From: Amycolatopsis sp. WQ 127309
GTDB taxonomy: Bacteria; Actinomycetota; Actinomycetes; Mycobacteriales; Pseudonocardiaceae
Assembly (NCBI RefSeq): GCF_023023025.1
Contig: NZ_CP095481.1
Span: 8,879,001-8,943,000, forward strand
Direction of reading: 5' to 3'
Length of the DNA: 64,000 nucleotides
Made by a program: the position numbers and the translations under genes. Under the pieces are notes generated by a model that searched no databases, was not told where the DNA came from, and saw only the letters and a program-made list of their open reading frames with translations. Shown in pieces: positions 27,575 through 30,091 of the stretch (its first letter is position 1; each line of letters opens with the position of its first letter).

Positions 27575-28053
27575 TCGAGACCCGCGCGGCCACCACCGCC
27601 GACGACGGCGCGCTGGCGAAGCTCGACGAGCGGACCTGGAGCCCGGAGACCTCCCCGGCGCCCGCTCCCCCGCCCGGCACGCCGTTCTTCGACGACGGCA
27701 CCCGGCCCGAAGACGTCCTGGTGGCCGAGCACGACGGCGTGGTCGCCGGGTACGTCCGGCTGGACGAGGGGTTCGGCATCGCCGCCCACCGGCACGTGCT
27801 GGTGATCGGCGGGCTCGCCGTCGACCCGGACCGCCGCCGCCTCGGCATCGGCCGGCTCCTGGTCGACGCCGCCGTCGCCGAGGCCCGCCGCCGCGGGGCG
27901 CGCAAGCTGAGCCTGCGCGTGCTCGGTCACAACACCGGCGCCCGGCGGCTCTACGCGAGCTGCGGGTTCGCGGTGGAAGGCGTGCTCCAGGACGAATTCC
28001 TGCTCGGCGGCGAGTACGTCGACGACCTTCTCATGGCCTGCGCGCTCGCTTGA
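27571..28053 (+). CDS. GNAT-family N-acetyltransferase
   Basis: A 160-residue acetyltransferase. The acetyl-CoA pocket is seen in VIGGLAVDPDRRRLGIGRLL (motif A) and the following motif B ends NTGARRLYASCGF. Motif order and length match GNAT enzymes that acetylate small amines or protein N-termini. The GTG start overlaps the upstream stop. Its own stop codon overlaps a consensus TTGACA box at 28050, the likely promoter of the ahcY leader. Confidence 0.88.
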   Translation: MIETRAATTADDGALAKLDERTWSPETSPAPAPPPGTPFFDDGTRPEDVLVAEHDGVVAGYVRLDEGFGIAAHRHVLVIGGLAVDPDRRRLGIGRLLVDAAVAEARRRGARKLSLRVLGHNTGARRLYASCGFAVEGVLQDEFLLGGEYVDDLLMACALA

Positions 28054-28079
28054 CAGGTTCCCGGCGCCTTTGCCATCCT
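28050..28079 (+). promoter_or_regulatory. Candidate promoter of the ahcY riboswitch leader
   Basis: A perfect -35 hexamer TTGACA (28050-28055) is followed after 18 bases by a weak -10, CATCCT (28074-28079). Initiation near 28086 would begin the leader just before the riboswitch. The box overlaps the acetyltransferase stop codon. Confidence 0.5.
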
Positions 28080-28120
28080 GGACGACGGAAACCGCGTGCG
28101 CCGGCCTTCGGCGCGTTTCC

Positions 28121-28193
28121 GGGCCGAGAGGCGCTGCGACGGATCTTCTTCCGCCACGCTCGGCCCGGGGATCACGGACCCAAGGGCGCCTCC
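28121..28193 (+). promoter_or_regulatory. S-adenosylhomocysteine riboswitch aptamer
   Basis: Stem P1 is perfect: GGGCCGAG (28121-28128) with CTCGGCCC (28159-28166). Inside it lie the conserved AGGCGCTGCGACGG element and a short second stem CGG/CCG with CCGCCACG, matching the SAH riboswitch core (GAGCGCUGCAA...GCCCAGG). A 3' strand GCGCCT (28187-28192) can pair with AGGCGC (28129-28134) to form the defining pseudoknot. It precedes ahcY, the SAH hydrolase gene, exactly where this riboswitch class is found. The pseudoknot strand is also the 5' side of the terminator, so bound SAH would block termination and turn ahcY on. A hairpin with arms GGAAAC/GTTTCC (28087-28120) directly precedes it. Confidence 0.82.
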
Positions 28194-28215
28194 CACTGTG
28201 GGAGGTGCCTTTTTT
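28186..28215 (+). terminator. Intrinsic terminator, riboswitch expression platform
   Basis: CCTCCCA (28189-28195) pairs with TGGGAGG (28199-28205) around loop CTG, extended by GGC/GCC, and is followed by TTTTTT (28210-28215). Its 5' arm shares bases with the aptamer's pseudoknot strand. A second weaker hairpin with arms CGGCAC/GTGCCG (28279-28295) plus TATTTT lies further down the leader. Confidence 0.85.
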
Positions 28216-28348
28216 GTATACCCGGCAAGCAAACCCGGCCCCGCGCGGCCGCGGCTAGCTCGACGCCACCCTGCCTCCCGGCACTCGCCGTGCCGTATTT
28301 TGTGCTGCCCTTTTGTCGAAACACACCGATTCCGGAGAGAACGCAAGA

Positions 28349-29809
<1,461 letters not shown>

Positions 29810-29935
29810 CCTTTCTCAGAGTTGCTCCATTTGCCGCAGTTTGGGACACCCGGAAACTGGCCATTCTCTCCTCGAGAGCGCATCCGCCCGGACGGCACGG
29901 AGCCGGGCCGGGTCTCGTGCGAAGGAGTGTGTCAA

Positions 29936-30091
29936 GTGATCGTCCTCGGTGTTATTTTGCTGGTCATCGGGTTCATTGTCGGTATTCCGGTGCTGTACAC
30001 GATCGGCATCGTGCTGGCCGTGGCCGGCGTGGCGCTGGCCATCCTCGGTGGCACGGGCCGCAAGATCGGCGGCCGCGCGCACTGGTACTGA
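29936..30091 (+). CDS. Small DUF6131-type membrane protein
   Basis: A 51-residue hydrophobic protein beginning VIVLGVILLVIGFIVG, with two membrane helices and the ending GGRAHWY, as in the small actinobacterial DUF6131 family. The GTG at 29936 has AGGAG at 29923-29927; an upstream extension to 29822 has no ribosome site. Function is unknown. It lies 126 bases after ahcY and appears separately translated. Confidence 0.75.
   Translation: MIVLGVILLVIGFIVGIPVLYTIGIVLAVAGVALAILGGTGRKIGGRAHWY

Follow-up and report, generated by a model that had tools for sequence, protein, structure and literature searches.

A predicted SAH riboswitch with an overlapping terminator in the ahcY leader of Amycolatopsis sp. 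WQ 127309

SAH is a toxic by-product, and the product of ahcY, S-adenosylhomocysteine hydrolase, breaks it down. Within the 64,000-nt stretch of DNA analysed here (the window), which is from the soil actinobacterium Amycolatopsis sp. WQ 127309, a first-pass annotation made from the letters alone had proposed that an SAH riboswitch with a mutually exclusive terminator lies just before ahcY. The question raised by this locus is whether the leader contains such a riboswitch and, if so, how it would act on the gene. The features discussed below are as follows (window coordinates):

28050-28055, + strand: predicted leader promoter, -35-like TTGACA, read from the letters; motif conserved in Amycolatopsis ahcY leaders
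28074-28079, + strand: -10-like CATCCT, 18 nt after the -35 and with CANNNT in place of TANNNT
28118-28192, + strand: predicted SAH riboswitch aptamer (P1, P2, pseudoknot)
28118-28128, + strand: P1 5′ strand, pairing with 28159-28169; letters checked, pairs covary
28129-28134, + strand: pseudoknot 5′ strand AGGCGC
28140-28153, + strand: P2 hairpin, 28140-28143 with 28150-28153
28157, + strand: presumed position 30, C in place of the G of the Rfam consensus (mismatched when aligned to RF01057)
28159-28169, + strand: P1 3′ strand; letters checked
28182-28215, + strand: predicted intrinsic terminator, made up of a hairpin (28182-28212; core 28185-28195/28199-28209 rich in GC) and six T
28184, + strand: presumed position 46, G in place of the C of the Rfam consensus (mismatched when aligned to RF01057)
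28186-28191, + strand: pseudoknot 3′ strand GCGCCT, lying completely within the terminator 5′ arm
28334-28339, + strand: Shine-Dalgarno-like GGAGAG of ahcY, outside the switch
28349-29809, + strand: ahcY, S-adenosylhomocysteine hydrolase, 486 aa; TIGR00936 612 bits (cut-off 498), PF05221, PF00670

No match within the window was reported by Rfam at the curated cut-off. When the RF01057 search suggested in the first-pass annotation was run with an open threshold, positions 28120-28197 were matched full-length with 36.8 bits (E = 2.4e-5 in 451 bases; 1.4e-4 over the genome), which is a match, but one 0.2 bits short of the gathering cut-off of 37. SAM/SAH (RF01727) and SAM riboswitches have a related ligand and differ in folds and targets; none of them was among the six Rfam matches at the locus, and the other weak matches there (mir-2450, P17, Magnesium-II, BcKCsr2, and Six3os1_3) were far under their cut-offs and were rejected. 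In 14 control genomes, RF01057 gave matches at E ≤ 10 in 10 genomes and at E ≤ 1 in four, none of them above the cut-off, and no matches at E 0.05 and 0.01. A second aptamer in the genome of the window (G000:C1:8803024-8803098, minus strand), directly before metH, passed the RF01057 cut-off with 40.4 bits; the GTG start of metH is a few bases past the hairpin that follows the pseudoknot strand of this aptamer. Further RF01057 matches in the same genome had at most 21.1 bits and were rejected; the six of them that were fetched (L003-L008) were without the motif. As a model named R1 contains the window sequence and would be circular here, a second model (R2) was built from 69 aligned aptamers of relatives, with no Amycolatopsis among them. 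R2 matched the window with 74.3 bits (E = 5.5e-14; next match 13.3), and over the 11.1-Mb genome it gave 74.3 bits for the ahcY copy and 70.0 bits for the metH copy, followed by 24.6 bits.

The letters at the locus agreed with the parts described in the first-pass annotation. The eight perfect P1 pairs were present at 28121-28128/28159-28166, inside an 11-pair helix with one U-G pair (28118-28128/28159-28169), the conserved core AGGCGCTGCGACGG was found at 28129-28142, and the bases GCGCCT were confirmed to serve both as pseudoknot strand and in the 5′ arm of the terminator, the hairpin of which is followed by the six T claimed (28210-28215). For comparison with relatives, 166 loci were fetched from among the RF01057 matches listed, the weakest genus matches being left out; all except L003-L008 carried the full motif, and these 160 loci corresponded to 147 distinct sequences, of which 95 remained in the alignment after thinning at about 90% identity. 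Standard pairs were found in 94.8% of the cells compared to 23.9-42.3% with partners slid by 1-3 columns, a control that retains the relatedness by which the pair counts are inflated. The covariation score was reached by none of 500 shuffles. Changes on both sides were seen at 11 of the 21 pairs, a number reached by one of 500 shuffles; they included five of nine pairs in P1 and four of six in P2, and the pseudoknot was paired in 99.6% of the cells, with compensatory changes at two of its six pairs. The set without Amycolatopsis gave a similar picture, with 11 both-side pairs reached by seven of 500 shuffles. We conclude that the predicted stems and pseudoknot covary. Covariance models, covariation and conservation in relatives together back the riboswitch proposed: the observation is real, 28118-28192 (+ strand) is confirmed by comparative sequence analysis as an aptamer of the SAH riboswitch class, and it would presumably bind SAH.

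Compared to the RF01057 consensus, the window has CCACG in place of CCAGG, CAAGGG in place of CAACGG, and a changed pseudoknot (AGGCGC/GCGCCU instead of GAGCGC/GCGCUC). In 3NPQ crystal-structure numbering, we take 28157 and 28184 to be positions 30 and 46, and 28136, 28137, and 28156 to be G15, C16, and A29. By this mapping, the ligand-side residues G15, C16, and A29 are kept, and C46 is replaced by G jointly with the replacement of G30 by C. All 95 aligned aptamers contained C30 and G46; they were extracted with a pattern that demands C30 and disallows C46 and that alone cannot prove the two bases to be invariant, but it dropped only L003-L008 of the 166 loci, so that an aptamer of the other type among these loci would have appeared as a miss. 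G30 and C46 were found in the Rfam consensus, in an Acinetobacter leader (L310, 26.1 bits) and in a distant actinobacterial aptamer (L247, 57.5 bits). The two positions appear to exchange together, like a base pair, yet perhaps only once in evolution.

In the available part of a study of the known aptamer, C46 is named as the residue at the SAH tail and G15, C16, and A29 as further ligand contacts, and the affinity is given as 32 nM for SAH and as 1,000-fold weaker for SAM (PMC7057144). Since positions 30 and 46 differ from the consensus and position 46 is named as ligand-side, the affinity of the window aptamer for SAH is not certain. The C30/G46 shared by all aligned aptamers, with position 46 at the SAH tail, would fit an aptamer of the same architecture with a ligand that is not, or not only, SAH, e.g., SAM or another adenosine compound. 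However, the other named contacts are unchanged, and the targets ahcY and metH, as well as adenosine deaminase in three order-level loci, fit SAH clearance, and we regard such a change of ligand as unlikely.

SAH as the ligand is suggested by membership in the family. The terminator hairpin (28182-28212, 14 pairs) had a predicted energy of -24.3 kcal/mol, compared to -11.6 kcal/mol for the pseudoknot duplex alone (seven pairs, one of them U-G) and -3.9 kcal/mol for the stem remaining once the pseudoknot holds its strand. Both helices need 28186-28191 for pairing, which supports the proposal that they are mutually exclusive, and the energies fit a switch that stays off unless its ligand keeps it open. 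Three terminator-like sites including 28182-28215 were found on both strands of 27900-28500, vs. a mean of 0.3 in shuffles, and the fold of 28110-28220 had a z-score of -4.64, with equal stability in none of 200 shuffles.

We consider it highly probable that SAH induces ahcY through a transcription switch in the leader, in which the pseudoknot is held, the terminator is blocked and ahcY is turned on; the direction (on with SAH) is suggested by the overlap of pseudoknot and terminator, and the strength of termination is likewise a prediction. Transcription would start near 28086 from the leader's own promoter, and P1 and P2 would form first. With SAH bound, AGGCGC (28129-28134) would keep GCGCCT (28186-28191) in the pseudoknot, the terminator (28182-28215) would be deprived of the greater part of its 5′ arm, and RNA polymerase would continue into ahcY. 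In the absence of SAH, the more stable terminator hairpin would capture the six bases, and the RNA would end at about 130 nt. At the second aptamer, the same principle would act on translation, with the hairpin before metH hiding the ribosome site.

The -35-like TTGACA overlaps the stop codon (28051-28053) of an upstream GNAT gene (PF00583) and is followed by a weak -10 box, CATCCT, from which transcription is predicted to start near 28085-28088. A promoter pattern (TTGACN-16 to 19-NANNNT, at most 140 nt upstream) was found in 30 of the 33 Amycolatopsis ahcY leaders, always with a spacing of 18 nt, in none of the 33 metH leaders and in 0.15% of shuffles; this agreement is partly due to shared descent, as all genomes belong to one genus. 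The target of the leader is indeed ahcY (TIGR00936, PF05221), an SAH-recycling gene, but "just before" was a loose description, as the ATG start codon at 28349 is 133 nt 3′ of the T tract. The hairpin might instead be a mere terminator of the GNAT gene, the stop codon of which is 128 nt upstream of it, with an ahcY promoter downstream of the hairpin, where a -10-like TATTTT is present at 28296. Against this, the conserved promoter sits between the GNAT gene and the aptamer, the spacer holds no -35 partner for the TATTTT by the pattern used, and at least four pseudoknot bases were in the predicted downstream hairpin at 159 of the 160 loci, the targets of which differ widely, although this was also the case in 67-76% of shuffles. 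A GNAT terminator and nothing else is, in our view, hardly credible.

A small ORF (29822-30091, + strand) was observed 12 nt past ahcY, with weak DUF3040 and SCO2097-family matches below cut-off; it may be co-transcribed with ahcY.

Because the criterion of at least four bases was reached by so many shuffles, presence of all six pseudoknot bases in the hairpin and the hairpin energies were used instead for evaluation of the proposed SAH-induced switch. The 160 loci comprised 62 with ahcY (two of them with metK between), 91 with metH and seven others. All six bases were inside the predicted downstream hairpin in 54 of the 62 ahcY leaders vs. 16.5% of shuffles (ten shuffles per locus), and the mean hairpin energy was -23.0 kcal/mol vs. 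-15.2 kcal/mol in shuffles. The mark was weaker in the metH leaders (48/91 vs. 21% of shuffles), in which the ribosome-site motif was fully paired in the 3′ arm of the hairpin in 77 of the 90 leaders with an assigned start. Automatic start codons were wrong for some ahcY rows (L021, L075, and L096 at least), and distances across all loci are rough.

The genus was sampled by hand counting of RF01057 matches of at least 28 bits in 36 Amycolatopsis genomes including that of the window. Sixty-six aptamers were found, two in each of 32 genomes and one in each of two (G004 and G011), and none at this threshold in the remaining two of the 36 (G013 and G032). The motif was present in all 66, which preceded ahcY (33) or metH (33), both involved in SAH recycling. 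In this hand count, 27 of the 66 passed the public Rfam cut-off, and the other 39, the majority of the copies counted in the genus, were missed by it. Along 1.9 kb, the ahcY region of Amycolatopsis orientalis was 89.2-91.5% identical to four Amycolatopsis-group loci.

At least five T among the eight bases after the hairpin were found in 24 of the 33 Amycolatopsis ahcY leaders and in none of the 33 metH leaders; over all 160 loci, the numbers were 29/62 for ahcY, 0/91 for metH and 0/7 for the others. The terminator is therefore not universal among Amycolatopsis ahcY leaders. The nine without the T tract were L011, L019, L028, L036, L069, L074, L081, L082, and L085, among which L036 and L069 had four T after the hairpin, and L019, L074, L081, L082, and L085 had about 900 nt from hairpin to ahcY. 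Elsewhere in the family, the ahcY start of some genera is within a few nt of the hairpin, which also contains the ribosome site (e.g., L044, L049, and L107), an arrangement that would suit control exerted chiefly at the level of translation or RNA stability, like that proposed for metH, with the T tract mattering little. In the window, however, the hairpin is followed by six T, and ahcY starts well past them and has a GGAGAG of its own, which makes control of this kind highly improbable here. From these sequence features, one aptamer type appears to drive both a terminator switch (ahcY) and a ribosome-site switch (metH) in one genome, by which the two platforms become directly comparable.

In an A. 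orientalis locus (L167, 1030-2001), about 900 nt were observed between aptamer and ahcY, with a putative methyltransferase gene on the opposite strand between them, as judged by eye; read-through RNA would thus be antisense to that gene.

In the family to which the genome of the window belongs, RF01057 matches at E ≤ 0.05 were present in 128 of 200 genomes (58 above the cut-off), and across the phylum 12 of 396 genomes, including that of the window, had matches at E ≤ 0.01 (two above the cut-off). Five phylum matches (L251, L252, L254, L256, and L257) were taken as probable chance, judged by their scores (26.5-31.0 bits) and in four cases also by the printed alignment. Model R1, which includes the window, gave matches in 126 of 397 genomes of the order. 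Among named ahcY loci (best 80 of 593 relatives), six carried the aptamer at 58.6-77.3 bits, namely those of Amycolatopsis orientalis, Herbihabitans, Actinomycetospora, Dactylosporangium, Jidongwangia, and Actinoplanes; the next match had 17.2 bits, and no aptamer was found at the Streptomyces ahcY loci among these 80. A second Amycolatopsis ahcY locus (L205, AhcY 72% identical) contained no aptamer. In the samples searched, strong matches were thus almost wholly within one order, and patchy there.

Typing of 40 further order-level loci by tblastn with six queries gave ahcY in eight, metH in 21 (L298 doubtful, 36% identity), adenosine deaminase in three, MOSC in four (L295 weak), FMN_bind_2 in two and a methyltransferase in one (L294, by eye), with one untyped (L316). 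The adenosine deaminase loci belong to two related families (L293, 1537-2064, - strand; L301, 335-718, + strand; L318, about 1472-1993, - strand) and were assigned by PF00962 for L293 and L301 and by tblastn for L318. AhcY releases adenosine as its second product, which adenosine deaminase would clear, and such a target would therefore make metabolic sense. Aptamers before MOSC-domain proteins were observed in several families (L038, L042, L156, L157, L296, L302, and L317, with L295 weak), by Pfam for L156, L296, and L302 and by reading or tblastn for the others.

In Proteobacteria, SAH riboswitches are established with ahcY and metF, and with metH in Comamonadaceae (PMC4239095, available part), and the accessible text of PMC3766115 notes them in Mycobacteriaceae. 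The description of the class as mostly proteobacterial thus stands, but the actinobacterial members are not wholly new, and the window aptamer belongs to a known class. It shares P1, P2, pseudoknot, UGC(A/G)A core and the ahcY target with RF01057 and differs in having C30/G46 instead of G30/C46 and in its pseudoknot, and like its Amycolatopsis relatives it scores around or under the gathering cut-off. As in the proteobacterial regulon, as far as the available text of PMC4239095 describes it, there are one or two riboswitch operons per genome with ahcY as the core target, but in Amycolatopsis ahcY and metH each have a locus and a platform of their own. The aptamer is followed by metK in two related genomes (L155 and L162), whereas that text states that metK is not under SAH-riboswitch control in the Proteobacteria studied. 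The riboswitches of Mycobacteriaceae noted in PMC3766115 are of the same class as that of the window. Within family f8, presumably the Mycobacteriaceae and in that case of the window's order, all 10 typed loci precede metH and none ahcY, and four aptamers have the pseudoknot GGCGU/ACGCC, unlike the window; at another f8 locus (L095), the gene after the aptamer encodes a methyltransferase.

A search by title and abstract in one limited literature collection yielded no paper on SAH riboswitches of Amycolatopsis or of adenosine deaminase genes. Within the literature searched, which was available in part, the window member, the two platforms side by side, the concerted change at the otherwise conserved positions 30 and 46 and the extra targets would be new. 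Amycolatopsis is a genus of antibiotic producers, and the leader suggests that its methyl cycle is under SAH-induced control. More tentatively, and with slightly less than even confidence, we suggest that the order has its own SAH-aptamer sub-class, with the concerted 30/46 swap beside the ligand, a wider SAH-clearance regulon than Proteobacteria (ahcY, metH, some metK, adenosine deaminase, and MOSC), and transcription and translation platforms derived from one hairpin.

Some further arrangements were observed. One virus-labelled contig (L308) matched the Proteobacteria-type core pattern but was rejected, with no pseudoknot strand seen by eye, and the pattern of the window's lineage gave no matches in virus-labelled contigs. 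The aptamer of L247 (1501-1567) is of the Proteobacteria type, is located in a small-genome actinobacterium (G253) before an ahcY-like start identified by eye, and was perhaps acquired from elsewhere. In L155 and L162, ahcY follows about 1.3 kb on from the aptamer, after metK (by Pfam in L155 and by reading in L162), and SAH would with this arrangement induce SAM synthetase too. Finally, aptamers were seen before methyltransferases (L095, by Pfam; L294), before FMN_bind_2 proteins (L297, by Pfam; L320, by tblastn) and before a GNAT protein (L141, by Pfam).
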